Origin: Alphaproteobacteria bacterium
GTDB lineage: Bacteria > Pseudomonadota > Alphaproteobacteria > Micavibrionales > CSBR16-224
Direction: 5' to 3'
NCBI GenBank assembly: GCA_021775895.1
Contig: JAJFGX010000014.1
Location: 1 to 34,918, forward strand
Length of the DNA: 34,918 nucleotides
In this document: positions 2 to 20,531 of the stretch, piece after piece
Layout: the number at the start of each line of letters is the position of its first letter
Numbering within the stretch: the first letter of the stretch is position 1
Made by a program: the position numbers and the translations under genes
Notes under the pieces: generated by a model
Told to the model about the DNA's origin: nothing
Database searches by the model: none
Seen by the model: only the letters and a program-made list of their open reading frames with translations

Positions 2-577
2 CTTGATTCTGCAATTGCAGATAGTTTTGCTGATGATTTTAACCGCTGTTATGGTGGCAACCGAGGTCTGTCCGTCCAAAATGGAAACCTAACATTAAAT
101 GGTGATATTTTAATAGGGGCTGAGCAATCTCAGATAAAAACCATCTATCTTCCAGACTTAACCACGATGGGGAGCAACTGTCTTTTCTACGCTTATGGAT
201 TGACGCAGTTTGAAGCACCAGCACTTACTACAATGGGAAATTACTGTCTATCATATGTCAATGCGTTGAGACAATTTGAAACCCCAGCACTTGAAACGAT
301 GGGAAACACTTGTCTTTATCGAGCCAATGCATTGATGCAATTTGAAGCACCAGCACTTACCTCCATGGGCGACTGTTGTCTTTATAATGTCCCTACATTG
401 ACGCAGTTTGAAGCTCCTGCACTTACTACAATGGGCAGCTTATGTCTTTACTATAATAATGCACTAGTGCAGTTCAAAGCACCTCTTCTAGAAGATGTTC
501 CACCTCACCTTGAGAGTTTTAATAACCCAATTAGGCGTGTAGCTAAGAAAATCTACCGTACACTAGTGGGGTTGTGA
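2..577 (+). CDS. BspA-like leucine-rich repeat protein, 3' end only
   Basis: The reading frame is open from the first complete codon of the window, so the gene begins upstream and the ATG at 167 is only an internal Met. From 167 to 496 there are five consecutive 22-residue repeats, each starting MGxxCL and ending QFEAPALTT or a close variant, preceded by a half repeat (IKTIYLPDLTT). The spacing and the hydrophobic/Pro pattern resemble BspA/TpLRR (LRR_5) repeats, here with one conserved Cys per repeat. The tail after the last repeat (HLESFNNP, then VAKK) has no membrane segment or sorting motif. A related C-terminus lies at 34592-34918 on the other strand. Such repeats usually mediate protein or surface binding; the partner is unknown. 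The N-terminus, and so any export signal, is not visible. Confidence 0.8.
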   Translation, partial: LDSAIADSFADDFNRCYGGNRGLSVQNGNLTLNGDILIGAEQSQIKTIYLPDLTTMGSNCLFYAYGLTQFEAPALTTMGNYCLSYVNALRQFETPALETMGNTCLYRANALMQFEAPALTSMGDCCLYNVPTLTQFEAPALTTMGSLCLYYNNALVQFKAPLLEDVPPHLESFNNPIRRVAKKIYRTLVGL

Positions 578-601: not shown

Positions 602-1576
602 TTAATTGGAGTTACTATATAAGCCATCAATATGAAGACATGCCGTATCAAATTTCTCTGACCAGTCTCCAGATAATGTAATATATTTTCGTTTGTGTAG
701 CTCTAGTTTTTCTATGCATCTTTGTTGGAAGAAGCTTTGTGTTTCTAGTGAATAGCGATGTATATCATCAACCCACTCGGTGTTTGTATCCATCATAAAA
801 GTTATATCATAGTGACCTTTACCAGCTTCATTCTCAAGCCATTCTGGACAATCACCAAAGAGAATTTCATGCCAGATAGATGTTGTGATTATATCAGTAT
901 CACAAATTAAAAGTTTGTTAGCATACCTAACAAGGGCATTTTCTGAAGATATTTGACCTTTAGCGATTGTCTTCATATCATTCTTTGATAAATCTTTGCC
1001 TTTACTATTAATTAGGCTATATGCATATTCTGGCACATGAATTGTTTCAAAATGCTTTGCTAGCTTTTCTGTAAGCATTGTCTTACCAGTTGATTCTGCA
1101 CCAATTAAGCAAACTTTCTTAACAAAATAAGGTCGTATAGTTTCAGGAATATAATGCCAATTTTTAAATGGCTGATTACGAATATCCGTACCACTGGTTG
1201 GAATAAGTTCTCTGCCCATATTTGCAGGTATAAATTGAGCGCCTAATGTTTTGGCCAAGTTTTCACCATAATCTTCGCCAGCGAAAACATAATCTAAACT
1301 TTTAGGTAGAATATTTGTTAAAGCATCATGCCAAAGTTGCCAGAAATCTGGGTGTTCTTCTGGTAGCTGTGGTAATTCTTCTTGCAGGTGCAGAACTGTA
1401 GAATTTGGAAACATCTCGCTCATCCATTTAAATCGTATGTCTCCTGAGATAGGTTCATTTTTTAATGATCCAACCACAATAAATAACTCATCAACGTAGT
1501 TTTCTGCAAAATAAGCTAGAACTGCGTGACCTTTATGTGGAGGCATGAACTTACCTAAAAATAATCCTGTCGTCAT
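602..1576 (-). CDS. nadR: NadR-type NMN adenylyltransferase / ribosylnicotinamide kinase
   Basis: A 324-residue bifunctional enzyme. The N-terminal nucleotidyltransferase domain has GKFMPPHKGH (residues 8-17, the HxGH-type site) and SGTDIR (128-133). The C-terminal kinase domain has a P-loop GAESTGKT (159-166) and a lid-like GDWSEKF near the end. NadR enzymes phosphorylate nicotinamide riboside and adenylylate NMN to NAD+ in the cytoplasm. The helix-turn-helix domain of enterobacterial NadR is absent, so no repressor role is expected. It is the last gene of the 7203-to-602 operon, and its start overlaps the preceding NRPS-like gene by 4 bp, implying translational coupling. That placement is odd for a salvage enzyme: it may serve a pyridine-nucleotide step of the pathway or act on an analogue. 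The family call is firm; the role in the cluster is inference. Confidence 0.88.
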   Translation of the reverse strand: MTTGLFLGKFMPPHKGHAVLAYFAENYVDELFIVVGSLKNEPISGDIRFKWMSEMFPNSTVLHLQEELPQLPEEHPDFWQLWHDALTNILPKSLDYVFAGEDYGENLAKTLGAQFIPANMGRELIPTSGTDIRNQPFKNWHYIPETIRPYFVKKVCLIGAESTGKTMLTEKLAKHFETIHVPEYAYSLINSKGKDLSKNDMKTIAKGQISSENALVRYANKLLICDTDIITTSIWHEILFGDCPEWLENEAGKGHYDITFMMDTNTEWVDDIHRYSLETQSFFQQRCIEKLELHKRKYITLSGDWSEKFDTACLHIDGLYSNSN

Positions 1577-4368
1577 CTCAGCTCCTTAATATATATGCTT
1601 AGTAATTCATCAGTTACTTTTGGGCATGATTCATGATAATCATTATCAGTGTTTTGTGTATCAAAATATATATCTGTTGCTTGAAATAAATCCATAGTAC
1701 GGTGCTGAATATAGCTGTCATTATTTCTACATAAAGATAGATATGTCGCTGCCTCATTTGCTTCTAAATCCCTATTTTCAAAATATAAATCCCAATCCAT
1801 TTCAGATAGAGTTTTAATATCTGGGCATTCTTTTTTAATGGCTTTAAGTAATTTAGTTAAGGTTAGAGGCTCTTTATTAGCTATATGATAAATTTTATTT
1901 TTGCCATGTAGAGATAAATGAGCCATAGCCTTAGACGCATAATCAATTGGAGTTATATCAACTGCGATTTTCGGTGCAATCTTTGGCATTACTCCCAAAG
2001 ATTTTATGCCTTTAATAAACATACCAAATAAATCATTTTGTGGAGCTTTACCTGTTTTAGTGTCGCCAGTTATAAGTCCAAATCGATAATTAGTTATTGT
2101 ACAAACATTTTCTGGCACTTGTAGTAACATGTATTCTGCTGCCCATTTTGTTTGTGCATAACCACCATACACATATTTTGTATTTTGCAGTTTATCTGCC
2201 TCCATTGCCGTGCCTGTATTTTTATCTGTAGCGACAAAAACAGACAAAGTTGATGCATAGTGAATATGTTTGCGTTGCCCTGTACAAGCCAACCTTAAAA
2301 CCTCTAATGTACCAGATATATTGCTAGAACGCATAGCCTCATAAGGCTGCACTATATTAACCCATGCAGCACAGTGGTAAATGGTATCGATTTTCTCTGT
2401 AAGCTCTTCCCACTTATTTTTATCTAGCCCAAAATGTGTTTTTGCTAGGTCTCCAGATATAATATGTATTCGCTTATTTGTATTTGAAAGTCGTGCATAT
2501 GCTTTAGCATCATTTTCAGCACGGATAAGGCAGTAAATTTCAGCCGTTGTTTGATCTAATAATTCTTTTAATAAATAACCGCCTAAAAATCCAGTCGCAC
2601 CAGTTATAAAAATATTCTTTGGCTCTGGCATATCGTTAGTTTTGCGTTTACTTGCTGATGAAAATAAAGATAACCACTCATCATTGAAAGCAACATCTTT
2701 CTTTAGCGTATCACAAGCAATTGCACCATTATAATCATTACCATTATCTATAGATTTAGCCATATTATGAATAGATTGTTTTGAGATTATTAAAGGAATT
2801 GGCAGAAATACATCCTGTTTTTCAGCCTCTATGGTTAAGTTCATAGCATTTAGAGAATCCCCGCCAACACTGAAGAAGCTATCATTAATTCCAAAATCAT
2901 CATGTTTTAAAATCTTCTTCCAAATATCATATAATATTTGTTCTGTTTTAGTTGTCGGCATTGTTTTATTTTTTACAACATAATTCAAAGCCTTGGTTTT
3001 TAAAGCCGTATAGTCTATTTTTCCTGTTATTGTCTCTGGTAGCTTTTCAACCATCTCAATATGCTGTGGTATCATCCAAGATGGCAATGACTTTTTTAAA
3101 AAATCATCTAAGTTTTTAGGTTTCTTCTTAACTGTAATAAATGCAATTAAAGCATCTGCTCCGTTCTTTTTTATAGACCTTTTTAAAACTGCAATTTTAT
3201 TAATATCTGAATGTTGCTTTAAGCACATCTCAATTTCTTCTGGCTCAATTAATTGCCCTCGCAATTTAAATTGCCTATCTATGCGTCCTAGAAATTCAAT
3301 TGAATTATTACTATGTTTTAAAACTTTATCACCTGTTTTATAAAAACGCTCATTATCTAATAGAACAAATTTCTCATCGGTTAATATTGCTTCATTTAAA
3401 TAGCCCCTAGCTAGACAATTGCCACCAATATAAAGCTCCTCATTCATAGTACGATATTTAACATGAGCCATTGGTTCTCCAATTAATGGCTTATCCCACG
3501 TATTAGCAGAGCATAAAATAAGGCTAGTGCAAACAGTTGCCTCCGTTGGGCCATAAACATTAATAATACGGTGTTTATTAGCCCAATTTCGTATGGTTTC
3601 AGGCGGGCAAACCTCACCACCAATAATAATTGTTTCAAGGCAACTAGGCATTTTTACTGGGTCAATAATCTTTAATAAAGCGGGCGGAATATCAGCATGA
3701 GTAATTTCTTGTTCATGCATTAAGTTAATCAGCTCAACACCATCTTTTAATTTTTCTGGCTCTGCAATGACAAGGGCAGATCCTGATAAAAGAGTAACTC
3801 CTATATCAGAAATAGATGCATCAAAACCAATAGATAGATAAAATAAATAACGGCTATTTTCATCGGTCTGGAATGCTTTTTTTTGCTCATTTATAAATGG
3901 TACAATACCACGATGCTCAACCATCACACCTTTTGGCTTTCCTGTTGAACCAGAGGTGTAAATAATATAGGCAAGTGTATCATCTTTAACTGCCACAGGA
4001 GCAAAAGACTTTAATTGATACCCAGTACTGTCAATATCTTGGGCAGTTAGAATATGCTGCATATTAGTTTCATGTTTAATTATTTCTTGTCTATCTTTAG
4101 GAAGACAAGTAGGCATAGGAACAAAAGCTCCTCCAGCATACCACACAGCTAAAAGAGCAATAATATATTCAGCAGATTTATCAATAGATAAACCTACAGG
4201 TGTTTCATAAGTAACCCCATTTTGCTTTAGTTTTTCGCCAAGTTTAGCTGCAAGCTTAGCAAGCTCAATATAGGTGAGCGTTTTATTATTATCAACAATA
4301 GCAGGTCGTTCTGAATACTTATCGACAATTTTCAGAAACTCACCCCAGAAATATGTAGTCTTGTTCAT
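1573..4368 (-). CDS. NRPS-like adenylation-PCP-thioester reductase
   Basis: A 931-residue single-module protein with no condensation domain. The adenylation domain (about 10-460) shows A3 TSGSTGKPKG (138-147), A5 NVYGPTE (270-276), A7 YKTGD (343-347), A8 GRIDRQFKLRG (361-371) and the A10 Lys in TGKID (K450). A carrier domain follows, with VGGDSL (501-506) and phosphopantetheine site S505. A Rossmann thioester-reductase domain starts at ITGATGFLG (588-596) and has a YAQTK active site (Y737, K741). The architecture matches Lys2-like and carboxylic-acid-reductase-like enzymes, which release an aldehyde or alcohol using NAD(P)H. A by-eye specificity code of about D-A-S-D-I-G-V-V-C-K keeps the Asp that binds an alpha-amino group and has a second acidic residue, suggesting a basic amino acid; this is tentative. 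It overlaps its neighbours by 4 bp on both sides. No PPTase gene is seen here. Confidence 0.9.
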   Translation of the reverse strand: MNKTTYFWGEFLKIVDKYSERPAIVDNNKTLTYIELAKLAAKLGEKLKQNGVTYETPVGLSIDKSAEYIIALLAVWYAGGAFVPMPTCLPKDRQEIIKHETNMQHILTAQDIDSTGYQLKSFAPVAVKDDTLAYIIYTSGSTGKPKGVMVEHRGIVPFINEQKKAFQTDENSRYLFYLSIGFDASISDIGVTLLSGSALVIAEPEKLKDGVELINLMHEQEITHADIPPALLKIIDPVKMPSCLETIIIGGEVCPPETIRNWANKHRIINVYGPTEATVCTSLILCSANTWDKPLIGEPMAHVKYRTMNEELYIGGNCLARGYLNEAILTDEKFVLLDNERFYKTGDKVLKHSNNSIEFLGRIDRQFKLRGQLIEPEEIEMCLKQHSDINKIAVLKRSIKKNGADALIAFITVKKKPKNLDDFLKKSLPSWMIPQHIEMVEKLPETITGKIDYTALKTKALNYVVKNKTMPTTKTEQILYDIWKKILKHDDFGINDSFFSVGGDSLNAMNLTIEAEKQDVFLPIPLIISKQSIHNMAKSIDNGNDYNGAIACDTLKKDVAFNDEWLSLFSSASKRKTNDMPEPKNIFITGATGFLGGYLLKELLDQTTAEIYCLIRAENDAKAYARLSNTNKRIHIISGDLAKTHFGLDKNKWEELTEKIDTIYHCAAWVNIVQPYEAMRSSNISGTLEVLRLACTGQRKHIHYASTLSVFVATDKNTGTAMEADKLQNTKYVYGGYAQTKWAAEYMLLQVPENVCTITNYRFGLITGDTKTGKAPQNDLFGMFIKGIKSLGVMPKIAPKIAVDITPIDYASKAMAHLSLHGKNKIYHIANKEPLTLTKLLKAIKKECPDIKTLSEMDWDLYFENRDLEANEAATYLSLCRNNDSYIQHRTMDLFQATDIYFDTQNTDNDYHESCPKVTDELLSIYIKELR

Positions 4369-6272
4369 AATTTAAAAGCCTTTTGCAGGAGACCTGCGGT
4401 TAACACTGTCATTAAAACAGGCTCTATTGCTATACGGTCAATGACACTCATATCTTTTATACTATCTAATAATTCTCCTAATTTCTTATTATCAAAAAAA
4501 GGTATATTTTTGAATTCTAAGCTACGTAAATTATCTTGAACAAAACCATTAAAAGTATTGTCACTATCATTAGCAATTGGCGGAGCAATAAAAGGGTGCT
4601 TTTGTCGCTTATAAATCTCCTCTGTAACATATGGTTTTACAGCCTCACGCAAGATATATTTTTCCACTCCATCTTTAATCTTCATAGATATTGGAAGTTT
4701 TTTGGTAAAATCGAAAAAATTATGATCCAAAAATGGCAAGCGACCTTCTATTGAATGAGACATTTCCATACCGTCACCAAGCGTACGTAGAATATAATTA
4801 GTCAACGCAAGTTTAGTCCATAAATAAAGTGATTGATTAACTACATGACGAGAATCTAATTGTTTTGGAATATCCACTGTATTCATTAATTCGCTGTAGC
4901 TATCTGTTTTTGCAAAACGCTGCAAATAATCCTCTGATAATATACTGTGCAAACGATAACCTAAAGATGCTTTTGCTTGTAGGAAACTTGGCACGTAGCC
5001 TAACTCCTGATTAACTGCAGTTAAAGGAAGCTCCTGACCAAGAGCAAGCATTAAGCCAGCAGATAATTTATTGCTGTTTTTAAGTGTGGCTATTTCATGC
5101 TTGTTGTTATCTAGCTGCAATAAGTCCTGCCTTAAATGTGGGTAGCCTGCAAGAACTTCGTCTGCGCCCTCACCTGTAAGAGCGACCTTAAAACCAGCCT
5201 TGTTAATCGCTTTATTCAATAAATATTTAGCCGCAATATGCCCATTAATAGCTAAACCCTCACCATGATAAACAGCATCTGGTAGAGCTTGCAATAAATC
5301 TGTTGGTGAAGCATTTACAACATGTAGCCTAGCATTTGCATGACCTGCCATATTTTGTGCTAGTGCTAGCTCATCATAATCATCATTACCCGTAAAGCTT
5401 ACTGTAAAAGCATCTAGTGGTTCATCGCTAATATCAGAGGCCATGCCCAGAATAGCACTAGAATCAATCCCACCGCTTAAATGAAAACAAACAGGAACAT
5501 CAGCTTGCATGCGGTCTTTTATTGAGTTTAATAATTTATCATGACATTCAGAAATTAAATCTTTCTCATTGAAATCAGTAATAACATCTTGTTCTTTTGG
5601 GTAATCCATATCCCAGTACGTGTGTATGCGTACATTATTATTTTCTACTAATAATAAATGACCTGCCTCTAATTGAGCAACATTCTTAAATAAAGTCTTG
5701 TTCTGTGGAGTATACTGCAAGCTCATTGAATGATAAAAAGAATCTTCGTCCCATTTTGCCATGATGCCCATTTCAAATAATGCTTTTGCCTCAGAGACAA
5801 TATAAACTCCATCATCAGTCACACTGTAACATAAAGGTTTAATACCAAACCTATCACGAGCTGCAAATAAGCGTTGTTTTCGTTTATCCCATAGAACAAA
5901 AGAAAACTCACCGCGTAAGTGTTTTAAACAGTCGACACCATATTCTTCATAAAGATGAATAAGTATTTCACTATCAGATAAAGTATTAAAACTATGTCCT
6001 TTGGCGATTAGCTCATCACGTATTTCTTTGAAGCCATAGAACTCCCCATTAACAATTGCGGTTATGGACTTATCTTCACTAAATAATGGTTGAGCTCCAT
6101 TATCAACATCAATAATACTTAAGCGAGCATGACCTAACCCTATATTCTTGCTCTCAGAAATCCATATTCCATGACCGTCAGGGCCACGATGAGTTATTGC
6201 ATTTAGACCTTGTTGTATGGAGTTGCCACTAACTTGTTTGCCCCATGAAATTACTCCAACAAGACCGCACAT
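4365..6272 (-). CDS. asnB: Asparagine synthetase-like glutamine amidotransferase
   Basis: A 635-residue member of the class II amidotransferase/asparagine synthetase family. It begins MCGLVGV with nucleophile Cys2, followed by ITHRGPDGHG (26-35) and a complete glutaminase domain. The synthetase domain has the PP-loop SGGIDSS (266-272) and the TGEGADEVLAGY motif. The family uses glutamine and ATP to amidate an adenylylated carboxylate; some relatives in biosynthetic clusters form other amides or beta-lactams. It is longer than E. coli AsnB (554). It sits second in a small-molecule operon, 7 bp after the dehydrogenase and overlapping the NRPS-like gene by 4 bp, so it may amidate a pathway intermediate instead of aspartate. 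The family call is firm; the substrate is unknown. Confidence 0.88.
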   Translation of the reverse strand: MCGLVGVISWGKQVSGNSIQQGLNAITHRGPDGHGIWISESKNIGLGHARLSIIDVDNGAQPLFSEDKSITAIVNGEFYGFKEIRDELIAKGHSFNTLSDSEILIHLYEEYGVDCLKHLRGEFSFVLWDKRKQRLFAARDRFGIKPLCYSVTDDGVYIVSEAKALFEMGIMAKWDEDSFYHSMSLQYTPQNKTLFKNVAQLEAGHLLLVENNNVRIHTYWDMDYPKEQDVITDFNEKDLISECHDKLLNSIKDRMQADVPVCFHLSGGIDSSAILGMASDISDEPLDAFTVSFTGNDDYDELALAQNMAGHANARLHVVNASPTDLLQALPDAVYHGEGLAINGHIAAKYLLNKAINKAGFKVALTGEGADEVLAGYPHLRQDLLQLDNNKHEIATLKNSNKLSAGLMLALGQELPLTAVNQELGYVPSFLQAKASLGYRLHSILSEDYLQRFAKTDSYSELMNTVDIPKQLDSRHVVNQSLYLWTKLALTNYILRTLGDGMEMSHSIEGRLPFLDHNFFDFTKKLPISMKIKDGVEKYILREAVKPYVTEEIYKRQKHPFIAPPIANDSDNTFNGFVQDNLRSLEFKNIPFFDNKKLGELLDSIKDMSVIDRIAIEPVLMTVLTAGLLQKAFKL

Positions 6273-6279
6273 TATATTA

Positions 6280-7203
6280 TTATCCTATTTCAAAAAATAT
6301 CTTTTTACTCTCATTCCTCTTAGCATAAGCAAAAACCATTTCAAAATCATTAAGCGAGAAAACCTCACCTAATAAATCATCAATATTAAAGTCATCATCG
6401 GCGAATAGTTCTAGAACGTCTTTAAAAGAAGCGTAGTTCACAGCAATAAGTTGTAGTTCTTTCATTACAGCCTGCTGAAAATTAATACCAACATTCTCAT
6501 ACTTACGGCTTTTAAGGATAAGTTTTCCCTGGGGTTTTAGAGCCTTAAATATTTGCTGCATAATGTCTTCCGTAGCCGAAGTTTCAATTGCAAAATCAAA
6601 ATTATTTGCAGGTAATTCCTCACCTAAATCAGGGTTATAAACTGTAATATTGGTAAAACCTTTGTATCTTAAGATGCGAGCAATTAAATCAGCAAACCTG
6701 TTATTGCCGTAAATTAAACCTTTATCTTGTGGCTTAATACCAGCCTTTAATATAGACAAAGAGGCCGCCATAGGTTCACTATAAGCACCTAGTTTAAAAG
6801 AAACATTGGCAGGTAGCTTATGAACAGAAGATGCAGGAACAGAGATATATTCTGCAAAAGCACCATTACTATCAATTCCAAGCATTGTAGTATGAGGGCA
6901 AATATCAGATTTGCCTTTAAGGCAAAACTCACACTCACCACAAGCAATAACAGGCATTACTGTTACATGATCACCAGATTTTAAACCATTAACATGATTA
7001 CCAACACTGTCAACAACACCAGAGAATTCATGTCCTAAGACCAACTTATCTTTGCTTTCAACAATATTCTCAGCAACATAAATATCAGTTCGACATAAAG
7101 CTGCCATCTTTATTTTAATAATTACATCATTACTATTTTTTATAACAGGTTTCTCAATATCTGTATAAGAAACTCCATTTATATCTTTATAAAGTGCCTT
7201 CAT
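6280..7203 (-). CDS. Zinc-dependent MDR-family dehydrogenase
   Basis: A 307-residue medium-chain dehydrogenase resembling threonine and sorbitol dehydrogenases. The likely catalytic-zinc ligands are C37 (in ALCRTD) and H58-E59 (in LGHEFSG). The structural-zinc cysteines are C88, C91, C94 and C102. A YSEPMA stretch follows at the start of the cofactor domain. The protein is shorter than the usual 340-350 residues, and the nucleotide-binding turn reads IYGNNRF where a GxGxxG loop is expected, so cofactor binding may be altered. It is the first gene of the four-gene operon, with an AGAGGA ribosome site before the ATG at 7203. It could reduce or oxidise the aldehyde or alcohol released by the NRPS-like reductase. 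That role is inference. Confidence 0.85.
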   Translation of the reverse strand: MKALYKDINGVSYTDIEKPVIKNSNDVIIKIKMAALCRTDIYVAENIVESKDKLVLGHEFSGVVDSVGNHVNGLKSGDHVTVMPVIACGECEFCLKGKSDICPHTTMLGIDSNGAFAEYISVPASSVHKLPANVSFKLGAYSEPMAASLSILKAGIKPQDKGLIYGNNRFADLIARILRYKGFTNITVYNPDLGEELPANNFDFAIETSATEDIMQQIFKALKPQGKLILKSRKYENVGINFQQAVMKELQLIAVNYASFKDVLELFADDDFNIDDLLGEVFSLNDFEMVFAYAKRNESKKIFFEIG

Positions 7204-7232: not shown

Positions 7233-7249
7233 ATACTCCATATGAGTAT
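7233..7249. promoter_or_regulatory. Operator-like dyad O1
   Basis: A perfect inverted repeat, ATACTC-CATAT-GAGTAT, lies over the predicted transcription start of the leftward operon. The same half-sites recur 22 bp away in O2. Two dyads in phase on the helix suggest paired binding of a dimeric repressor. No regulator gene lies next to it in the window. Confidence 0.6.
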
Positions 7250-7251
7250 AT

Positions 7252-7280
7252 AATATACTCACTATGAGTGTATCTGTCAA
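7252..7280 (-). promoter_or_regulatory. Sigma70-type promoter of the dehydrogenase-to-nadR operon
   Basis: On the minus strand, TTGACA (7280-7275) is followed after exactly 17 bp by TATATT (7257-7252). This predicts a start near 7245, about 40 bases before the ATG at 7203. One dyad fills the spacer and another spans the predicted start, so the promoter is probably repressed by a dimeric regulator. Confidence 0.7.
7255..7271. promoter_or_regulatory. Operator-like dyad O2
   Basis: An inverted repeat, ATACTC-ACTAT-GAGTGT, with one mismatched arm position. It has the same 6-5-6 layout as O1 and starts 22 bp (about two helical turns) from it. It overlaps the -10 box and most of the spacer of the leftward promoter. 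Confidence 0.55.
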
Positions 7281-7380: not shown

Positions 7381-8139
7381 ATGTCTATACGCCAAAAATT
7401 TGCCGAAATGGCTCTTGATTATCTACCAGACGAGGGTGAGATAACTATAAGAAACCCCGCTGTTGTACCCGGAGCATTTATGATAGCTCTGCTAGGTGCT
7501 ATTGCTGGTGGCATTATTGGTATTGTAAATATTGGAGAATCAGGGAATCAATATGCAGATAAATTTGCTGATGACTATGAAGTTGTATTAGAAAATCTAA
7601 TAGAAGAAAAAGCTTCTTATAATAGCATATATAAAGGAACACATGGTACTAATGATAACACTGATAAATCTTATATAATGGATCTTATTGATGGAACTAA
7701 TAATGTAAGCAATGAAGTTAGTGTTGATGCTGATACAGCAGCAAGTAGGCTTATGCATCACTATAAATTATTTGCAGATGCTGTGCAGAAAGACCCTAAT
7801 ATCGATGAAGATGATGCAGGTGACTTAATCGAAGCATTTGAAGAAAATATAATACCGCTAAAAGACCTTGGTTATGCTACCTCTCCTAATTCTGACTTTC
7901 TAAGAGAGTGTCAAATTAATAACAACACATCTTTTGAAATAAATAGTTGTGCTAAGGACTTAAATTCAAGTAATTCTAGACCTAACAATGAAGTAGAATT
8001 GTTTATGTTATACGGTGCAATTGCTGGAGTTTCTTTATGGCCAATATTGCCAATCATGCTTGATACTGGGGTTTCAATGAACCGCAATCGTTTGGAGAGT
8101 TGGAAAAAGAATAAAAACCATGGACGAAACCCTTATTAA
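7381..8139 (+). CDS. Hypothetical two-helix membrane protein
   Basis: A 252-residue protein I do not recognise. One hydrophobic segment lies at about residues 30-50 (Gly/Ala/Ile-rich) and a second at about 208-230. Between them is an acidic, Asn- and Asp-rich region with two Cys (in RECQ and SCAKD) that could form a disulfide if it is periplasmic. The Lys/Arg-rich C-terminal tail suggests that end is cytoplasmic, which would put the central domain outside the inner membrane. It has its own promoter, an AGAGAG-like ribosome site, and it converges on trmFO with a 4-bp gap. It is divergent from the biosynthetic operon; whether it belongs to that pathway cannot be told. Confidence 0.7.
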   Translation: MSIRQKFAEMALDYLPDEGEITIRNPAVVPGAFMIALLGAIAGGIIGIVNIGESGNQYADKFADDYEVVLENLIEEKASYNSIYKGTHGTNDNTDKSYIMDLIDGTNNVSNEVSVDADTAASRLMHHYKLFADAVQKDPNIDEDDAGDLIEAFEENIIPLKDLGYATSPNSDFLRECQINNNTSFEINSCAKDLNSSNSRPNNEVELFMLYGAIAGVSLWPILPIMLDTGVSMNRNRLESWKKNKNHGRNPY

Positions 8140-8143
8140 GTTT

Positions 8144-9505
8144 CTATAGCCAACTTTTTAGAGCATTTAATGCCCTTGTTGTATAATATTTCTTACGATC
8201 AAGCCCTTTGAGTTTTTTCTTTTTACCATTAGGTAGAATTTCAATTGGAACAGGTGGAAATAGGCCAAAATTTATATTCATTGGCTGGAATGTTGAACTT
8301 TCTGCTCCGCCTGTAATATGCGATAGCATTGACCCCATCGCAGTTTCTACAGGTGGCGTATCTATATCTAGACCCAAAATTTCAGAGGCTGCAAACCTAC
8401 CTGCCATTAAACCAACAGAGGCACTTTCAACATAGCCCTCGCAACCTGTTATTTGCCCTGCAAAACGTAATCTTTTCTCTGTTTTTAAGCATAGTTTATC
8501 ATCAAGCAATATAGGGCTATTAATAAAAGTATTTCTATGTATTCCGCCTAATCTGGCAAATTCTGCATTTTCAAGTCCTGTGATTGATTTAAAAATTCTC
8601 ATTTGCTCGCCATATTTCAACTTTGTTTGAAAACCAACAATATTATAAAGCGTGCCAAGCTTATTGTCTTGTCGAAGCTGTACAACTGCATATGGTATTT
8701 CATCACTATGTGGATTTGTCAGCCCAACTGGTTTCATTGGCCCAAAGCTTAATGTTTCAATTCCTCGCTCTGCCATTACCTCGATTGGCAAGCAACCTTC
8801 AAAATATGGAGTATCTTTCTCCCAGTCTTTAAACTCTGTTTTATCACCTGTAATCAAGGCATCAATAAAATCATAATACTGCTCTTTACTCATTGGACAA
8901 TTGATATAATCTTTACCATCGCCACCTTCACCAATTTTATCATATCTCGATTGAAACCATGCTTTGCTCATATCTATGCTGTCTTTATGGACGATTGGAG
9001 CAAGAGCATCAAAAAAAGCTAAAGAATCTTCACCTGTTAGTTTTCTAATCGCCTCTGATAGGGCTGGCGATGTTAATGGGCCTGTTGCAATAATTACATG
9101 CTCCCATTCTTTTGGTGGCAGAGCATCAATCTCTGCTTTATCAATGGAAATTAAAGGGTGCTCAGATAAAGTTTTTGTAATTTCCTCAGAAAATATATCA
9201 CGATCAACCGCAAGGGCAGAGCCTGCAGGAACTCTAGCATTAGAGCCAGCACGCATGATAATTGAATTACAACGTCTCATTTCTTCATGTAAAAGCCCAA
9301 CTGCGTTATGCTCCCAATCATCAGATCTAAATGAATTAGAGCAGACAAGCTCCGCAAAACCATCGGTTTTATGAGCATCTGTCATTTTAACTGGACGCAT
9401 TTCATGTAAAACAACTTGAACACCCATTTCAGCTGCTTGCCATGCAGCCTCACTTCCAGCCATACCAGCACCAATAATATGAAGCTCTTTGTCTTTATTT
9501 GTCAT
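8144..9505 (-). CDS. trmFO: Methylenetetrahydrofolate-tRNA-(uracil-54-C5)-methyltransferase TrmFO
   Basis: A 453-residue flavoprotein of the GidA-related TrmFO family, which makes ribothymidine-54 in the T-loop of tRNAs from methylenetetrahydrofolate. Visible are the FAD-binding [10 protein letters not shown] (12-21), the family-typical HEMRP and [11 protein letters not shown] around C55, and [12 protein letters not shown] around C203, matching the two redox/catalytic cysteines of the family. The C-terminal FAD region includes [13 protein letters not shown]. Its start lies 11 bp inside the end of the upstream fusion gene, so it is probably coupled to it. Length and motifs are normal, and the call is secure. 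Confidence 0.96.
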
Positions 9506-11549
9506 TTTTTAAATGTCCTATTAATTTATTATCAATTTCTGGCTTTTTATTAAACCATTTTTTAAAAGCAGGAATAGCCTGATTAATTAGCATGCCAATA
9601 CCTGTTACAATTTTACATCCTTTATCCTCTGCATCTTTTAATAGCTTGGTATAAAGTGGAGTATATACAAGGTCATAAACGATGGCGGTTTTAGGAAGTT
9701 TAGATATTATATCAAGCTCTATTCCAGAGTTATTATTCATACCTAAAGATGTTGTATTAATTAATAAAGATGTGCTTTCAAATAGATCATAATCGTTGCT
9801 CCATTCTTTAGCATATATGGTGCAATTATTCCCTATTTTAAAGTCCTCTGCCAAAAGCTGTGCTTTTTCCAGCGTACGATTAAGGATATAGATCTCTGGA
9901 ACTCCACTTTGTATTAGGGCGTATAATACAGCTCTTGAAGCTCCACCAGCCCCCAATATTATAGCCTTTGTATCCTTAGCTTGCCAATCTGGCACAGTAT
10001 TATATAGGTTCTGGATAAAGCCATAGGCATCGGTATTAATACCATGGAATTTTTTATTCTCATCAATTACAACTGTATTTACAGCCCCGATAGCTTTGGC
10101 AGTATCGTCTAGACTATCCATTAATTTGAAAGCATCTTCTTTATAGGGAATAGTTATATTACAACCAGCATAGCCCTTATCTCGCAAATTATTTAAAGTC
10201 TCTTCAAGCATTCCTTTCGGCACGGGTATTTTCTTATACTTGCCTAATATATTATATTTTTCTAACCAATAGCCATGCAGTTTAGGAGATAATGAATGCT
10301 CTATTGGCCAACCAATTACTCCCGCCTTAATAGTTTTGTTGTCTACTGCTTCTTTTAAGCACATTAAACACTCTGTGCGACCTGCTGTAAAATTATCATC
10401 AGCCCACCATTTTTCAACAGTTTTTAATATTTCGCCTACTTGTTTTCCTTGTCCTATACCTAAAGCTAGAACATCACCTCCAATTAATTGAAACTTAGGT
10501 ATTCTACAAGCTGTTGCCATTTGATATAGATTTTTATAATCATTTTTATATTCTATATTATTTGCTCCAGACAATAAAATCATGTCTAGAGTAATATCAC
10601 GCCCTAAATCATGTACCATACGCCTTAAATCTATCTCCGAAGTATCAGGCAGAATATCTTTTGAATTTATTAAAATATTACGATGTGTTTTTTGAGCCTT
10701 AGATAAACGGAATAAAGGTATATCTCCACAACTCAAAGCAACTAAGCTACGAATATTATCATGACTAGTGTAGCATATTTGCTCTAGTGCAATTAAGCTC
10801 TCTAATTTATCTACCGATACATCACCAGTTATAATCTCAGTCATAACACCAGCCTCTAACATATACTTACAAGATAATGGTGCTTGCTTTGATTCTAATA
10901 GTCTCAAAAATTCATTAGTAATGCGTTCTTTAGATAGGTTAGGTATTTTATTTGCAAAAATAGAGCATGCTTTTAATGCAGTATCATCAACAGGTTCTCG
11001 TCCATAATGAGCAAAAAAGCGAAAAAAACGCAAGATACGCAGAATGTCTTCTTTAATTCTATCCTCGGCAGAGCCAATAAATTTTACAATCCCATTATGA
11101 AGATCAGAGACTCCATCAAAATAATCATAAATATTACCATCAATATCACAGAACAAAGCATTCATAGTGAAATCACGCCTTGCTGCATCTTCCTCCCAAT
11201 TATCGGTAAAAGAAACTTTCGCATGTCTGCCATCTGTTTCTATATCTTTTCTTAATGTCGTTATTTCAAAAGGCATTTTATTAATAATTGCAGTGATAGT
11301 GCCATGCTCAATTCCTGTCGGCACATATTTTATATTAGCCTTAACTAAACAGTCTATCATTTGCTCTGGTTTCAGCGGTGTTGCGATATCAATATCGCAT
11401 ACGCTACGATTAACCAAGCTATCACGTACACAACCCCCGACAAAACGTGGAGCATCAACACCTGAAATACTTAAAGCTTTCATAAGCTCTAAAGTTTCAG
11501 GATAAACCATCCATGCGGGAAAACTATTTAAACGTTGGGTAATTGCCAT
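9495..11549 (-). CDS. Fused CCA-adding tRNA nucleotidyltransferase - shikimate dehydrogenase
   Basis: A single 684-residue frame containing two unrelated enzymes. Residues 1 to about 403 are a class II CCA tRNA nucleotidyltransferase: GGCVRD (38-43), catalytic DID (52-54), RRDFTMNAL (124-132) and [12 protein letters not shown]. Its usual C-terminal end, with QGKQVGEIL, is present. Residues about 408-684 are a full Aro[12 protein letters not shown] (412-422), NITIPYK with catalytic K470, NTDAYGF (505-511) and a [12 protein letters not shown] loop (533-540). AroE makes shikimate from 3-dehydroshikimate. The join is near position 10335, with only a few linker residues and no Met at the AroE start. 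Both halves look complete and active. An assembly error that erased a stop is possible but would have to keep the frame. The gene overlaps its upstream neighbour by 22 bp. Confidence 0.92.
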
Positions 11550-12532
11550 TTGTCTATTAAAACACTAAATTGTTCATGTGTAAATCTAACTGCAGCAGAG
11601 TTAGCATGACCACCGCCATTTATTCCATATTTTGTAGCTATTTCTTCTGCAACAGAGCTAACATCTATATCATTATCACTACGCAAGCTAAGTGACACCA
11701 TTTTGTGATCAGGATCGTATTTGCATGCCATGAATATTTTTGGCTCATAACTACTTTGTTTCTCAAATTGATACCAGAATTCACGACTAAGGTATTTAAC
11801 TTTTCTCCAAACAAAGCCAACCTTACAATCTCCTAAGGATTGAATGCCTTTACAAGAGATTGGTTTCATTTCATCTAAAGCAATGTTGATTCTTTTTATA
11901 TAAATTTTCCGTTGTTTTAAGCCTCGCTCTTCAAGAATTCTGATTGTATCATTTGTAGCTACAAGCTCAGAAATTTCTTTGGAAAATTGCTCAAAATCAC
12001 TATTATCAAAAGTATCTACCCCAGCCGCCAGAGTAAAAAACTCCTCGGGTGTTGACATGAAATCACTATTAGCTAAATCCATCGCCTCAACCAAATCAAT
12101 AAGAAATGGTCTGGTTTTCCCTTTATTAAATATATCCCAACTAAGCCCTGCACCTGAACGATTCATATCAAGAACAATTTCACAATTGGGGTGTGAGAAG
12201 TTTTTTAAATGTTTATGTGAGGTTATATGGTGATCGTAAATACTAACTTTATGCCCAACATCTAGAAGTTTTTCCAAAATTGATGGTAAAGGTGATATAT
12301 CACAGAAATAAACATGAGCATCTGCATATAATAAACATGTCTCTAAAATATTCCCATCATCATGATTAATGCCAATATATTCTGTATTTTCAGTGCCTAA
12401 AGCTTGCAAGGCTGCCCAAGCTGAAACACTGCCGTCCATACAAGGGTGATGATAAAATATAACATTGTGAATTTCTTTTTTAGAGCTTTTGATATTATGC
12501 AAGGTCAAAATTTTCTGTTTTAGCATCACCAT
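11528..12532 (-). CDS. DHH-family phosphoesterase
   Basis: A 334-residue DHH/DHHA1 phosphoesterase. The N-terminal HHPCMDGSVSAW holds the first metal ligands, YFCDISP a further Asp, and YDHHITS is the DHH motif. The C-terminal substrate domain has GGGHANSAA near the end. Relatives hydrolyse short oligonucleotides, 3'-phosphoadenosine phosphate or cyclic dinucleotides; which applies here cannot be read from the motifs. The annotated ATG lies 38 bp inside xseB and has no clear Shine-Dalgarno site, so a slightly later TTG (12508 or 12502) is possible. It also overlaps the CCA-AroE gene by 22 bp, and translation is probably coupled. Confidence 0.87.
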   Translation of the reverse strand: MVMLKQKILTLHNIKSSKKEIHNVIFYHHPCMDGSVSAWAALQALGTENTEYIGINHDDGNILETCLLYADAHVYFCDISPLPSILEKLLDVGHKVSIYDHHITSHKHLKNFSHPNCEIVLDMNRSGAGLSWDIFNKGKTRPFLIDLVEAMDLANSDFMSTPEEFFTLAAGVDTFDNSDFEQFSKEISELVATNDTIRILEERGLKQRKIYIKRINIALDEMKPISCKGIQSLGDCKVGFVWRKVKYLSREFWYQFEKQSSYEPKIFMACKYDPDHKMVSLSLRSDNDIDVSSVAEEIATKYGINGGGHANSAAVRFTHEQFSVLIDKWQLPNV

Positions 12533-12725
12533 TAGGAGATAAAGTGATTTTCTCTATTTTTGCTTGAGCATCTTTTAATTTGCTCTCACAATATTGTTTT
12601 AGAACCATACCCTTCTCATATGCTTCTATCGACGTTTCAAGGTCACCTTTACCGCTTTCTAATTGCTTTACTATAGACTCAAGCTCAATTAATGCCGCTT
12701 CAAAACTAATATTATTTTCTGTCAT
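12495..12725 (-). CDS. xseB: Exodeoxyribonuclease VII small subunit
   Basis: A 76-residue protein with the typical XseB pattern: SFEAALIELESIVKQLESG, then DLETSIEAYEKGM and LKQYCESKLKDAQAKIEKI. The small subunit forms a long helical hairpin that binds XseA for degradation of single-stranded DNA. XseA is not in this window. It follows the lipoprotein gene by 4 bp, with a GGAAA site about 12 bases before its ATG. Confidence 0.93.
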   Translation of the reverse strand: MTENNISFEAALIELESIVKQLESGKGDLETSIEAYEKGMVLKQYCESKLKDAQAKIEKITLSPNGDAKTENFDLA

Positions 12726-12729
12726 TTTT

Positions 12730-13242
12730 CTAATTTCCTTTATTTTCTGGTTTTAATTGAAGTCCAAAAACAATTTTATATAGCCCCGCATGCTCAATTC
12801 TTGCAAGTGGTATATTATGTTCGATTTCCTCTGTTAAAACTCCAACCCCAGCATCTTCATCTAATGCAATTGTCGCAGGGAATATCTTTTTAGCCAGAAT
12901 TTCATTCGTTGGCGATAAAATAGTTACAAAATACTCAAAACTTTGCTCATTAATAAAGGAAGCATCAGGGCTACGCTCCGCATAGAAAAATAACTTTGCA
13001 TCAATCATAACAGAAAGACCATCATTATTATCGAAGGAACATTGCCCAGAAAAATCTTTAATCATAACATAAGCCTGTTTTGTGCCGTCCTTGGCAAAAA
13101 TTTGCATATCTTCGGCTTCATGAATTAATCCTGTTTCGGGACAGGTAAGTTTAGAGGTATCTATCGCAGGCTTTAGTAATGCACAGCCATGCATTAACAA
13201 TACAAACCCAACTAAAAAAAAGATACGAACGATACTAAACAT
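12730..13242 (-). CDS. Putative lipoprotein
   Basis: A 170-residue protein with an N-terminal hydrophobic segment (about 3-18) ending in LLMHGC. This is a lipobox-like sequence with Cys20, so it is probably lipid-anchored to a membrane. The remainder is soluble and beta-rich (AYVMIKDFSGQC, VMIDAKLFFYAER, FEYFVTILSP), as in small conserved proteins of unknown function in alphaproteobacteria. It is the first gene of the leftward xseB/DHH/CCA-AroE/trmFO operon and divergent from ispH, with an 82-bp gap to the longest ispH frame. No function can be assigned. Confidence 0.75.
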   Translation of the reverse strand: MFSIVRIFFLVGFVLLMHGCALLKPAIDTSKLTCPETGLIHEAEDMQIFAKDGTKQAYVMIKDFSGQCSFDNNDGLSVMIDAKLFFYAERSPDASFINEQSFEYFVTILSPTNEILAKKIFPATIALDEDAGVGVLTEEIEHNIPLARIEHAGLYKIVFGLQLKPENKGN

Positions 13243-13289
13243 AAAACTTAACTTTTGTTATTTTTTAAACTCTACGGTAAAAACATGAC

Positions 13290-13318
13290 TTGATACAAGT
13301 ACAAAATATAACTATATA
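13290..13318 (+). promoter_or_regulatory. Possible ispH promoter
   Basis: TTGATA (13290-13295), a 17-bp spacer, then TATATA (13313-13318). The predicted start is almost at the ATG at 13325, which argues for starting translation at the later ATG (13346). Confidence 0.35.
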
Positions 13319-13345
13319 GTATCTATGACAAAAATACAGGTAAAA

Positions 13346-14296
13346 ATGCAAGCAGAAAAGAAATTGAAAATTATATTGGCAAATCCCAGAGGGTTTTGTG
13401 CAGGGGTTGATCGTGCGGTTTTAATTGTTGAGAGAGCTTTACAGAAATATGGAGCTCCCGTATATGTTCGTCATGAGATAGTTCATAACAAACATGTTCT
13501 AGAATCTTTAATGGCTAAAGGTGCTGTTTTTGTAGAGGATCTTGATAATATTCCAGATGATGTGCCTGTAATTTTTTCTGCGCATGGGGTTGCTAAATGC
13601 GTCACGGCAGAGGCTACAAGTAAAAAGATATTTTATATTGATGCAACCTGCCCATTAGTTAGTAAAGTACACAGAGAAACCGAACTGCACCATAAAAATA
13701 ATAAACATGTTTTATTGATAGGTCATAAAGGACACCCCGAAGTAATAGGCACAATGGGACAAATTTCAGCAGATTCTATATCACTTATTGAGAATATAAA
13801 AGATGCAGAGAAATATGAAACCAACACCCCTGATAAGCTTGCATTTGTTACGCAAACTACACTATCTGTAGATGATACTAAAGATATTATAGAAGTTTTA
13901 AAAAGACGCTTTCCTAAAATTGTTTCACCCAAAAAAGAAGATATATGCTACGCAACAACCAACAGACAAGCCGCAGTTAAAGAGATTGCGACTAAATGTG
14001 ATACGGTTGTGGTTATAGGCTCTAATAATTCATCGAACGCTAATCGTTTGGTAGAGGCCGCAAAACAGCATGGCTGTAATAAGTCATTTTTAGCACAAAA
14101 TAGCTCTGCGATTAACTGGCAAGATATAATAGACAATACAAATATTTTAGGCATCACTGCGGGAGCATCAACGCCTGAAGTACTAATTTCTGAAGTAATG
14201 GACACTGCTAATGATATATTCTCTGAGGTTGAAATTGAATATATTTCTGTAGCAGATGAGAATATCACCTTCAAACTTCCAAAGGTGGTGGCTTAG
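13346..14296 (+). CDS. ispH: 4-hydroxy-3-methylbut-2-enyl diphosphate reductase
   Basis: The last enzyme of the MEP isoprenoid pathway, converting HMBPP to IPP and DMAPP with a 4Fe-4S cluster in the cytoplasm. The three cluster cysteines appear in RGFCAGVDRA, DATCPLVSKVH and DICYATTNRQ. The substrate-contact motifs SAHGV and SNNSSNANRL are present. The start at 13346 is preferred because an ACAGG sequence precedes it at good spacing and the product then begins a few residues before the conserved ILANPRGFCAG; an in-frame ATG at 13325 would add seven residues. thrB follows after 3 bp, so ispH-thrB-rnhA is one operon. Confidence 0.95.
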   Translation: MQAEKKLKIILANPRGFCAGVDRAVLIVERALQKYGAPVYVRHEIVHNKHVLESLMAKGAVFVEDLDNIPDDVPVIFSAHGVAKCVTAEATSKKIFYIDATCPLVSKVHRETELHHKNNKHVLLIGHKGHPEVIGTMGQISADSISLIENIKDAEKYETNTPDKLAFVTQTTLSVDDTKDIIEVLKRRFPKIVSPKKEDICYATTNRQAAVKEIATKCDTVVVIGSNNSSNANRLVEAAKQHGCNKSFLAQNSSAINWQDIIDNTNILGITAGASTPEVLISEVMDTANDIFSEVEIEYISVADENITFKLPKVVA

Positions 14297-15869: not shown

Positions 15870-15909
15870 ATAAATGTAATTGAATTTAATAACAGATAGA
15901 ATTAAGGTC

Positions 15910-16818
15910 ATGGATACAAAAGAAGATATCATAAAACTATGGCATGAAAATGTTGATAGTATCTTGGCTCAACAAAGTCCTAAAAGACGTCAACATGAAC
16001 AAGAGCGTATACAGGTAATTCGTGAATTAATGTCTGATAGTGCCTTGGGTAAGGATTTACTGGATTGGGCAGATGATAACGATATTGTTATTTTAATGGA
16101 TAAGGAAATTATGGTTGGTGGATACCACCTTAGTGGTCTAAAAACCATTGCTTTGTCTACACATATTCCAAATGGGCAGCTTATAAATACACTTGCTCAT
16201 GAGATACGCCATGCTTGGCAAGACGGCCAAGGATTCTTGCCTTTATTTAACAACAATCTAGATAAGAATTCTGTGCAAACAGCTACAGAATATATGTTGC
16301 AAGTACGTTTTCTTGAGGCTGATGCCACAGCTATTGGAAATAAAGTACTTAAAGATGTAATTGAAAAACGTGGCAAACTAGCAATGCTTAAACATCTACC
16401 AATGACTAGCATTATATCACACACTATAGAATTTAAAACAAGCTTAGTAGAAAAGTTTAATGACTTTTTCTATGATGATGCTAGGAAAAATGCCTATGAT
16501 GAGCGTAGTTTAAAAATATATGCAGCATATATGGGTATATCAAATATTATAATACCTTATAGTGAATTAGAATATGATGATGAGAAGTTCAGTGATCAAC
16601 ACAATATGCCTTTTAATATTGGCATTAATGTTCATGATGAAGCATCGATTAGAAAATTGGGGGAAATCTTTAACCAAGGTAATTATATGGACAACCTACC
16701 TGAAGGCTTCCATAAAGCCCCTTTCTATTCTGCAGGTTTTTCACTTGAGAATGAAACATTTGAGGTACTAAAAAAAGCCAATACTTTACGAAATAGTTAC
16801 AAGCCCAGAAAATTATAA
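15910..16818 (+). CDS. Putative HExxH zinc metallopeptidase, copy 1
   Basis: A 302-residue protein with the zinc-binding motif HEIRH in TLAHEIRHAWQ, followed about 40 residues later by VRFLEADATAIGN, whose acidic residues could supply the third ligand. It resembles the DUF6782-type putative metallopeptidases as I remember them; this was not searched. The start at 15910 is chosen because AAGG precedes it and the neighbouring paralogue aligns from there, while the ATG at 15880 falls at the predicted transcription start. No signal peptide or membrane segment is seen, so it is cytoplasmic or exported without a classical signal. It is followed by a close paralogue after 22 bp. The substrate is unknown. 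Confidence 0.72.
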   Translation: MDTKEDIIKLWHENVDSILAQQSPKRRQHEQERIQVIRELMSDSALGKDLLDWADDNDIVILMDKEIMVGGYHLSGLKTIALSTHIPNGQLINTLAHEIRHAWQDGQGFLPLFNNNLDKNSVQTATEYMLQVRFLEADATAIGNKVLKDVIEKRGKLAMLKHLPMTSIISHTIEFKTSLVEKFNDFFYDDARKNAYDERSLKIYAAYMGISNIIIPYSELEYDDEKFSDQHNMPFNIGINVHDEASIRKLGEIFNQGNYMDNLPEGFHKAPFYSAGFSLENETFEVLKKANTLRNSYKPRKL

Positions 16819-16840: not shown

Positions 16841-17761
16841 ATGAATAAAATTATGGATAAAAAAGAAGATATCATGAAACTATGGCATGAAAATGTTGAT
16901 AGTATCTTAGCCAAACAAAGTCCTAAAAGACGAGAACGAGAACAAAAACGTATACAGATAATTCGTGAATTAATGTCTGATAGCTCCTTGGGTAAGGATT
17001 TACTAGATTGGGCAGATGATAAAGGTATTACCATTCTAATGGACAAACAAGTAAGGTCTAATGGTTATTATTGTGATGGTTTAAAAACTGTTGTTTTGTC
17101 TACAAATGTTCCAAATGGAGAACTTATAGGCACCCTTGCCCATGAAATACGCCATGCTTGGCAAGATGATCAAGGGTTGTTGCCAACTCTTAATAAAAGC
17201 ATGGATAATAATTCTGCACAAACGGCTATAGAATACATGGTTCAAGTGCGTTTTCTTGAGGCAGATGCCTCAGCGGTTGGAAATACAGTGTTAGAAGATG
17301 TAATTGAAAAACGTGGTAAATTAGCAATGCTTAGACACATGTCAGTTGCTGCGATGATATTGCATGTAACAGAGGCTAAAGTAAGCCTGGAAGGAAAATT
17401 CAAAAATTTCTTTTCTGACACCCCTAGAAAAGATGCTTATGATGAGCATAGCTTAAAAAACTACGCCACATATATGGATATACCAAATATCGTAATGCCT
17501 TCTGGTAAAATGGAATATGATGATAGTAAATTCCATAGAAAGCACAATATACCTTCTAACATTGGTCTTAATGTTTATGATGAGGCATCAATTAGAAAAT
17601 TAGGTGAGATTTTTAATCAAGATAACTATATGAACAACCTACCTAAGAACTTTCATCAGGATCCCTTCTACTCTGCAGGATTCTCACTTAGAGCAGATGA
17701 TTCACGACTACTAAAAAGGGTTAACACTATAAAAAACAGGCATAAGACAAGAAAATTATAA
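16841..17761 (+). CDS. Putative HExxH zinc metallopeptidase, copy 2
   Basis: A 306-residue paralogue of the preceding gene. It has the same N-terminal block (IMKLWHENVDSILAKQSPKR), the same HEIRHAWQ zinc motif and RFLEADASAVGN, and the same C-terminal LGEIFNQ and FYSAGFSL. The two proteins are similar along their whole length, and the DNA is nearly identical near the 5' end, so this is a fairly recent tandem duplication with both zinc sites kept. The ribosome site is weak; the ATG at 16841 or 16853 may be used, and expression probably depends on read-through from copy 1. The last bases form TTATAA, shared with the stop of the convergent Sel1 gene. Confidence 0.72.
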   Translation: MNKIMDKKEDIMKLWHENVDSILAKQSPKRREREQKRIQIIRELMSDSSLGKDLLDWADDKGITILMDKQVRSNGYYCDGLKTVVLSTNVPNGELIGTLAHEIRHAWQDDQGLLPTLNKSMDNNSAQTAIEYMVQVRFLEADASAVGNTVLEDVIEKRGKLAMLRHMSVAAMILHVTEAKVSLEGKFKNFFSDTPRKDAYDEHSLKNYATYMDIPNIVMPSGKMEYDDSKFHRKHNIPSNIGLNVYDEASIRKLGEIFNQDNYMNNLPKNFHQDPFYSAGFSLRADDSRLLKRVNTIKNRHKTRKL

Positions 17762-19460: not shown

Positions 19461-20531
19461 ATGAATTCTAAAAAACTATCAATATCGGCACTTTTTTTCG
19501 TGGCATGTCTTGCAACTACCAATGCAGGAGCAAATGGAAACCATGAACGCAATTCACATGGGCATGATGATGACCATACTACAACCACAACTACTGTTGA
19601 TAATAGTCTTACTTCTAAGCCAACGCTTATTGCAACACCAACAGCTATTGCAGGCGCAGATCTAGATGCTAGCTTAACTAATATTTCTGGTTCTAGAGCT
19701 ACTTCTGGTTCTAAAGCTACTTCTGGCTCTGAGTCATTATCATTATCTAAAGTTGGTGACATTGATGCAGCTTCTAGAGCATCTGCTATAAATGGAAGTA
19801 ACAAGCAAACAGTTGAAGTTCCTGTTAAGCAAGATAATAAGCAAGTAGCAAGCCAAAGAACAACAGTTGGTGACAATACACAAAGAACAACAGTTGGTGA
19901 CAATACACAAAGAACAACAGTTGGTGACAATACACAAAAAACAACAGTTGGTGACAATACACAAAGAACAACAGTTGGTGACAATACACAAAAAACAACA
20001 GTTGGTGACACAACTCAAACAACAAGGACATCAGCTGATGGCAACAAAACCCTTGTTGGAGGACAAAAAACTAGTTATAACCACCAAACAAAAATCGGTC
20101 ATATGACTGGAGCGCCAAACCTTGGTTCACAAAATGTTATGGGCGAATGTAAAGATGGTTGGGGAGTAACTCTAGGCGGAGGTCACCCTTTCTATGGTAG
20201 TGGTGGTGTTGGTGCTCAAGTAGTGAATAAAGATGATGAGTGTTTAAAAGATAAACGCGCCCATGAAAAAGAAATTAAAGGCATGGTAATTGAACATAAT
20301 GAAATTATCAATGAAAACACTTTATCTAGCAATGAACTTATCAAGCAAATGGAAGTAACAAGTAATGAAAATGTAGCTCGTATTGAAGGTGCTACAAAAA
20401 TTGCTAACACTGGTGTAAAGGCACAATGTAATCAAGCTGCATCTAATAAATCAGCTAGTCAAGCTTGTGAAAACAACACAAGCCAAGCAATGGGATTCTT
20501 ATTTCCTAGCGCACCAGTAAATAGAAGATAA
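19461..20531 (+). CDS. Secreted His-rich protein with 9-residue tandem repeats
   Basis: A 356-residue protein I do not recognise. It begins with a signal peptide (MNSKKLSISALFFVACLATTNAGA, hydrophobic core about 6-18), and cleavage after NAGA is likely. The mature N-terminus is His/Asp-rich (HERNSHGHDDDH) and then Thr-rich, which could bind metal. A Ser/Thr/Ala-rich region leads to six 9-residue units of [RK]TTVGDNTQ. The C-terminal part has a Gly-rich stretch (TLGGGHPFYGSGGVGAQ), an acidic/Asn-rich helical region and two Cys near the end. There is no outer-membrane anchor motif. It has its own promoter and a terminator, so it is a single-gene unit. A surface or periplasmic role is likely. 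Confidence 0.7.
   Translation: MNSKKLSISALFFVACLATTNAGANGNHERNSHGHDDDHTTTTTTVDNSLTSKPTLIATPTAIAGADLDASLTNISGSRATSGSKATSGSESLSLSKVGDIDAASRASAINGSNKQTVEVPVKQDNKQVASQRTTVGDNTQRTTVGDNTQRTTVGDNTQKTTVGDNTQRTTVGDNTQKTTVGDTTQTTRTSADGNKTLVGGQKTSYNHQTKIGHMTGAPNLGSQNVMGECKDGWGVTLGGGHPFYGSGGVGAQVVNKDDECLKDKRAHEKEIKGMVIEHNEIINENTLSSNELIKQMEVTSNENVARIEGATKIANTGVKAQCNQAASNKSASQACENNTSQAMGFLFPSAPVNRR
19857..20018 (+). repeat. 27-bp in-frame tandem repeat
   Basis: Six head-to-tail copies of a 27-bp unit (start AGAACAACAGTTGGTGACAA) lie inside the secreted-protein gene. The first five are almost identical apart from an AGA/AAA (Arg/Lys) change, and the last is degenerate. A unit of 27 bp keeps the frame, so copy-number change would alter protein length without breaking it. 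Confidence 0.9.

Follow-up and report, generated by a model that had tools for sequence, protein, structure and literature searches.

An operon pairing a stand-alone NRPS-like reductase with a NadR-type protein recurs across phyla and carries predicted NadQ-type operators

We describe a four-gene operon from a draft alphaproteobacterial genome of the order Micavibrionales, in which an NRPS-like enzyme of adenylation, carrier and thioester-reductase domains (A-T-R, also written A-PCP-R) is joined to a NadR-type protein. Common operators, conserved gene sets and the fusion of a NadR-type kinase to the A-T-R enzyme in one lineage link NAD homeostasis to the NRPS-like enzyme. The reading we favor, to which we give a probability of a little under one half (about 0.45), is that the operon encodes a dedicated pathway under NadQ control, leading from an amino acid through an amino alcohol and its phosphate to an NAD-like dinucleotide. 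If this holds, such a dinucleotide would represent a new kind of cofactor analogue or an antimetabolite not seen before. The enzyme families are themselves known, whereas we did not find their combination, the A-T-R–kinase fusion or the NadQ link described.

Operon layout and distribution of the gene set

The window, the whole stretch of 34,918 nucleotides that was analyzed, is an entire contig of a 2.0 Mb draft genome. Four complete minus-strand ORFs encode, in order, an MDR (zinc) dehydrogenase (6280–7203, 307 aa), an AsnB-like glutamine amidotransferase/amide synthetase (4365–6272, 635 aa), the A-T-R enzyme (1573–4368, 931 aa) and a two-domain NadR-type protein with an NMNAT-like nucleotidyltransferase and a P-loop kinase (602–1576, 324 aa). 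This is exactly the arrangement given in a preliminary description of the region, and the spacings it reported (+7, -4 and -4 bp) are borne out. A common promoter had also been supposed, and the best promoter-like site of the region, a single strong predicted sigma70-like sequence (TTGACA-17-TATATT, 7252–7280, minus strand, 11 of 12 matches), lies just 5' of the MDR gene. The next gene past NadR (167–577, plus strand) is convergent, which places the end of the operon there.

The upstream intergenic region is shared with a divergent gene (7381–8139, plus strand) for a 252-aa membrane-like protein that has no Pfam, NCBIfam or PADLOC match; for the five proteins tested, the PADLOC anti-phage defense models gave 0 matches. 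Elsewhere in the window we noted a 684-aa ORF (9495–11549, minus strand) that by eye resembles a fusion of a tRNA nucleotidyltransferase (CCA-adding/polyA polymerase type) with a shikimate dehydrogenase, two tandem paralogous ORFs sharing an HEIRHAWQ motif (15880–16818, 312 aa, and 16841–17761, 306 aa, plus strand), and a protein with TTVGDNTQ repeat units (19461–20531, plus strand) that is probably secreted or displayed on the surface.

The expectation that these genes act as one set gains support from their distribution. Searches of 142 genomes of the same order recovered the A-T-R enzyme (E < 1e-100) in 16 and a NadR homologue (E < 1e-10) likewise in 16, with NadR present in 15 of the 16 A-T-R genomes and in one of the 126 others, an association far above chance (Fisher p = 4e-18), although the p value overstates the association, related genomes being non-independent; yet the 15 genomes of co-occurrence span four families. 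The A-T-R gene of the sole genome lacking NadR (G001) is truncated at a contig end, and the sole NadR-positive genome without A-T-R (G048) shows a partial, weak match. Those relatives that have a name are MAGs of Micavibrio or of unclassified Alphaproteobacteria. Of 385 genomes sampled across the class, none but the window's own matched A-T-R (E < 1e-120), and no A-T-R relative was found in viral contigs. The cluster is missing from G006, a near relative in the same genus, and is therefore accessory.

Beyond the Alphaproteobacteria, a genome scan with a methyltransferase alignment located clusters of MDR, AsnB, A-T-R and, variably, methyltransferase and 2OG dioxygenase genes in Myxococcota, Verrucomicrobiota, Cyanobacteriota and Gammaproteobacteria, most of them with NadR. 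The lineages comprise Myxococcales/Lujinxingiaceae, Verrucomicrobia, Obscuribacterales, one Prochloron-labelled MAG and one gammaproteobacterium. The preliminary description would have been refuted by an arrangement peculiar to this genome or by closest relatives in unrelated housekeeping neighborhoods. Neither check refuted it: gene set and order are kept across several lineages in at least four phyla, and the NadR and A-T-R of the set are unlike those of ordinary NadR/PnuC and siderophore A-T-R contexts.

The full cluster runs MDR, AsnB, methyltransferase, PhyH-type 2OG dioxygenase, A-T-R and NadR. The methyltransferase and dioxygenase genes, which are often present in relatives, had not been foreseen; some relatives lack the dioxygenase, and in L011 the two form a single fused protein. 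MDR and AsnB are also found in L025, L026 and L032. The set occurs without methyltransferase and dioxygenase in the window, L023 and L027–L029, as far as the contigs extend, and a genome search found neither gene elsewhere in the window's genome. No NadR lies in the stretch covered for L037 and L039, while the sequence of L040 and L046 stops within or soon after A-T-R (in L046 just after). Flanking the cluster in L032 is a pair (11773–14190) made up of a protein of about 640 aa with no Pfam match and an adjoining small ORF that ends in repeated GGK motifs (SSSYGGKSSSYGGK). A 41% identical copy of the larger protein is found in the window's genome (L115:2–1833, G000:C58), where the small GGK ORF is preceded, at a distance of about 30 bp, by a perfect NadQ-type site; the two proteins are possibly a peptide-modification pair.

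Enzyme features, adenylation code and kinase fusion

The A-T-R protein matches AMP-binding, PP-binding and NAD_binding_4/Thioester-redct models (Pfam/NCBIfam), and its carrier (PCP GGDSL) and reductase (TGATGFLG and YxxxK) motifs are intact; AMP-binding, PP-binding with GGDS and thioester-reductase domains together are those of an NRPS-like carboxylate reductase. With the code positions assigned by hand against GrsA numbering, the specificity code of the A domain reads DASDIGVVCK. The pattern DASD[IV]G[VC][VI]CK was present in 25 of 25 cluster A-T-Rs and in none of seven control A-T-Rs, which are plasmid-borne proteins whose surroundings are siderophore/NRPS or unrelated and contain neither NadR nor AsnB. 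The cluster A domains share this code despite pairwise identities down to 32%, and the controls (31–37% identity to the window protein) are just slightly more distant from it than the most divergent of the cluster members (37–58%). Two of the controls gave DVGEIGSIDK and DILQLGLIWK, the textbook codes for Orn and Gly, which serves as a check on the extraction method. DASDIGVVCK is presumably nearest to the Gln, Glu and Lys codes, does not single out one substrate, and was absent from the literature searched. As at least four phyla keep the one code, it is probable that the same undescribed metabolite is widely produced.

The MDR protein has an ADH_N domain (Pfam, 4e-28) with conserved zinc ligands (CRTD, GHE, EP), and its best NCBIfam match, L-threonine 3-dehydrogenase, falls under the cut-off; in its homologues a GxNRFxxL-like Rossmann motif stands in place of GxGxxG. 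From these features, it is the probable enzyme of an aldehyde/alcohol step. The AsnB-like protein combines GATase_7 and Asn_synthase domains (Pfam), passes the asparagine synthase model TIGR01536 (447 bits, cut-off 267) and conserves both the Cys2 glutaminase residue and SGGxDS (SGGIDSS in the window). A second AsnB-type enzyme in the genome (L054) has the higher asparagine synthase score. The idea that the AsnB-like enzyme substitutes for NadE was rejected, as NAD-synthase-type genes were found in eight of eight genomes tested, including the window's.

In the NadR-like protein, CTP_transf-like and AAA_28 domains (Pfam) carry intact GKFMPPHKGH, SGTxIR and P-loop ESTGK motifs, and the nearest PDB entry is the NadR structure 1LW7. 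It nevertheless scores below the cut-off of TIGR01526 (264 bits against 341), as do eight cluster homologues (154–275 bits), making nine of nine cluster NadRs under the threshold. Two kinase glycines, in EYGR and DDGxR, are invariant in 17 ordinary NadRs and both lost in 15 of 15 cluster proteins (A185 and I272 in the window), which makes an altered kinase substrate likely. The tree of cluster NadRs needs three changes for a single clade and does not settle monophyly. Since the genome holds NadA and NadD, and also a gene of NadE type whose long-type NAD synthase frame is cut off by a contig end, the operon NadR is unnecessary for ordinary NAD; the NMNAT half retains ordinary NadR features and so could still make it.

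In seven loci of one lineage (L023–L029), A-T-R continues at its C-terminus into a NadR-type kinase domain (AAA_28), and wherever the contig goes on, a free-standing NadR-like protein is encoded downstream; L033 and L045 have the additional kinase as a protein of its own. Such a fusion suggests the A-T-R product as the substrate of the kinase. The free-standing NadR has a destroyed P-loop in L027 and L029 and has lost the lid of its kinase half in L045, the extra kinase being intact in each case, so it seems that the A-T-R product is served by a single kinase activity. At L044, conversely, the NMNAT half is degenerate and the kinase half intact, with a tandem NadD just upstream on the same strand, from which nucleotidyl transfer seems to be needed too. 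Taken together, this pattern of decay suggests a requirement for one activity of each kind, kinase and nucleotidyltransferase. The upstream NadD protein of L044 (4505–5809) carries two NadD domains fused in tandem, with two matched stretches and a score above the NadD cut-off for the protein.

Predicted NadQ-type operators

Two palindromes 22 bp apart lie on the operon promoter. Operator 1 (7233–7249, ATACTCCATATGAGTAT) has no mismatches to ATRCTCNNNNNGAGYAT, and operator 2 (7255–7271, ATACTCACTATGAGTGT), between the -35 and -10 elements, has one, counting over the 12 core positions of the consensus. According to PMC5343134, NadQ is a predicted regulator of nadABC in Alphaproteobacteria, with the consensus ttATRCTCannntGAGYATaa. 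The same spaced pair is present upstream of nadA in the window's genome (L117, sites 650 and 672, nadA at 733) and again 5' of an ORF that opens with 34 residues resembling the FAD-binding start of NadB; the contig ends there, and we tentatively assign this ORF as nadB.

Sites are found upstream of the cluster in eight of 13 alphaproteobacterial loci with upstream sequence and are absent in the other five; none was seen in other phyla. The 16 sites over these 13 loci compare with 0.24 in dinucleotide shuffles (maximum 3). Genome-wide, allowing up to three mismatches, 86 sites stand against 54 for the reversed pattern, which is near background, and for this reason only the near-perfect nadA/nadB pairs were used. 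Judged by these motifs, the operon appears to be under an NAD-supply repressor of the NadQ type, which ties it to NAD metabolism.

A proposed pathway and its alternatives

In our model, the A domain would activate a polar amino acid (the Gln/Glu/Lys-like code), the R domain would release the thioester reductively, and the MDR enzyme would complete or adjust the reduction to give an amino alcohol, while the AsnB-like enzyme would introduce a carboxamide into either substrate or product. Next, the kinase of NadR type could phosphorylate the new hydroxyl, the amino alcohol replacing nicotinamide riboside as substrate, and the NMNAT-like domain would join the phosphate to ATP, generating an NAD-like dinucleotide (X-CH2-O-PP-adenosine). 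In relatives, the methyltransferase and 2OG dioxygenase would decorate X, and a NadQ-type repressor would control the whole operon by NAD supply. The preliminary description had proposed reduction, processing, amidation and phosphorylation or nucleotidylation, in a pathway it did not recognize; this is still the best-supported logic, with each chemical step, the order of steps and the product being what we infer from the observed linkage, conservation, A-domain code, kinase fusion and decay, and operator sites, although it missed the two extra genes of relatives, the A-T-R–kinase fusion and the NadQ-type operators. Our literature search likewise returned no match to the pathway and no description of such a cluster. 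It is possible, if somewhat doubtful, that the product is a true NAD mimic, in which a carboxamide-bearing, amino-acid-derived amino alcohol replaces nicotinamide riboside. Made on demand by the NadQ-controlled operon, such a mimic might be an alternative cofactor or an antimetabolite aimed at the NAD enzymes of competitors, prey or phages.

A kinase and a nucleotidyltransferase following a small-alcohol pathway are also the usual logic of surface decoration, as with CDP-choline or CMP-aminoethylphosphonate, and natural products otherwise seldom undergo nucleotidyl activation. The operon might then supply a nucleotidyl-activated phospho-amino alcohol for transfer to a glycan or lipid, the nucleotide serving as a leaving group only, and the weak match of the methyltransferase profile to phosphoethanolamine N-methyltransferases would be in keeping with this. 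We consider such a role unlikely, as no transferase, flippase or glycan gene is conserved among the neighboring ORFs inspected at the cluster flanks, the predicted NadQ operators are ill-suited to an envelope pathway, and NadR/NadD-type domains are pyridine-nucleotide adenylyltransferases.

Two further readings stay within NAD metabolism. In ordinary NAD salvage, the NadR-like protein would handle nicotinamide riboside and merely share its operon with the three genes of an unrelated, NAD(P)H-consuming amino-aldehyde pathway; intact NMNAT and kinase catalytic motifs, a homologue at L041 that is up to 47% identical to a phage NadR beside PnuC, and the control of NAD genes by NadQ are all compatible with this. 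It becomes quite improbable in the face of a kinase fused to A-T-R, co-occurrence in 15 genomes against one weak NadR match without A-T-R, an operon lacking PnuC, two class-specific kinase substitutions, and the decay of one half where a second kinase is present. We give very little credence to a new route to NAD or a pyridine precursor, in which an amino-acid-derived aldehyde cyclizes, AsnB adds the carboxamide and the operon is switched on with nadA under NAD shortage. Predicted NadQ operators common to nadA and the apparent nadB, a carboxamide-forming enzyme and NadR-type final steps would suit this scheme, but NadA, NadD and a NadE-type gene are already in the genome, the cluster has no phosphoribosyltransferase or nucleosidase, and the methyltransferase and dioxygenase of most relatives would be unexpected.

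The favored pathway to an NAD-like dinucleotide draws on several known systems and departs from each. As in CMP-activated phosphonate pathways (PMC6697681), a nucleotidyltransferase would activate a small amino compound; here, however, no PEP mutase was recognized in the cluster, and a NadR-type kinase and A-T-R are present instead. The operon shares the operator ATRCTCNNNNNGAGYAT with nadA of the published NadQ regulon, whose core comprises nadABC, joined in some orders by nadD/nadE, and for which the available text of PMC5343134 mentions no NRPS-like operon. The AsnB-like enzyme has its nearest solved structure in the hydroxyamidotransferase 7ylz and resembles the AsnB family in its class II glutaminase with Cys2 and its Asn-synthase domain, but is operon-bound. 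Ordinary NadR (NMN adenylyltransferase/ribosylnicotinamide kinase) has the same domain order, HxGH, SxTxIR and P-loop, at about 30–47% identity to the cluster proteins, yet occurs in a PnuC context, whereas the operon partner of the cluster protein is A-T-R. Finally, myxochelin MxcG, RenF and cyanobacterial siderophore-type synthetases possess the same adenylation, carrier and thioester-reductase domains (28–33% identity), from which the cluster A-T-R differs as a stand-alone single module with its own code, no C domain and no siderophore context, and, in one lineage, a C-terminal NadR-type kinase.
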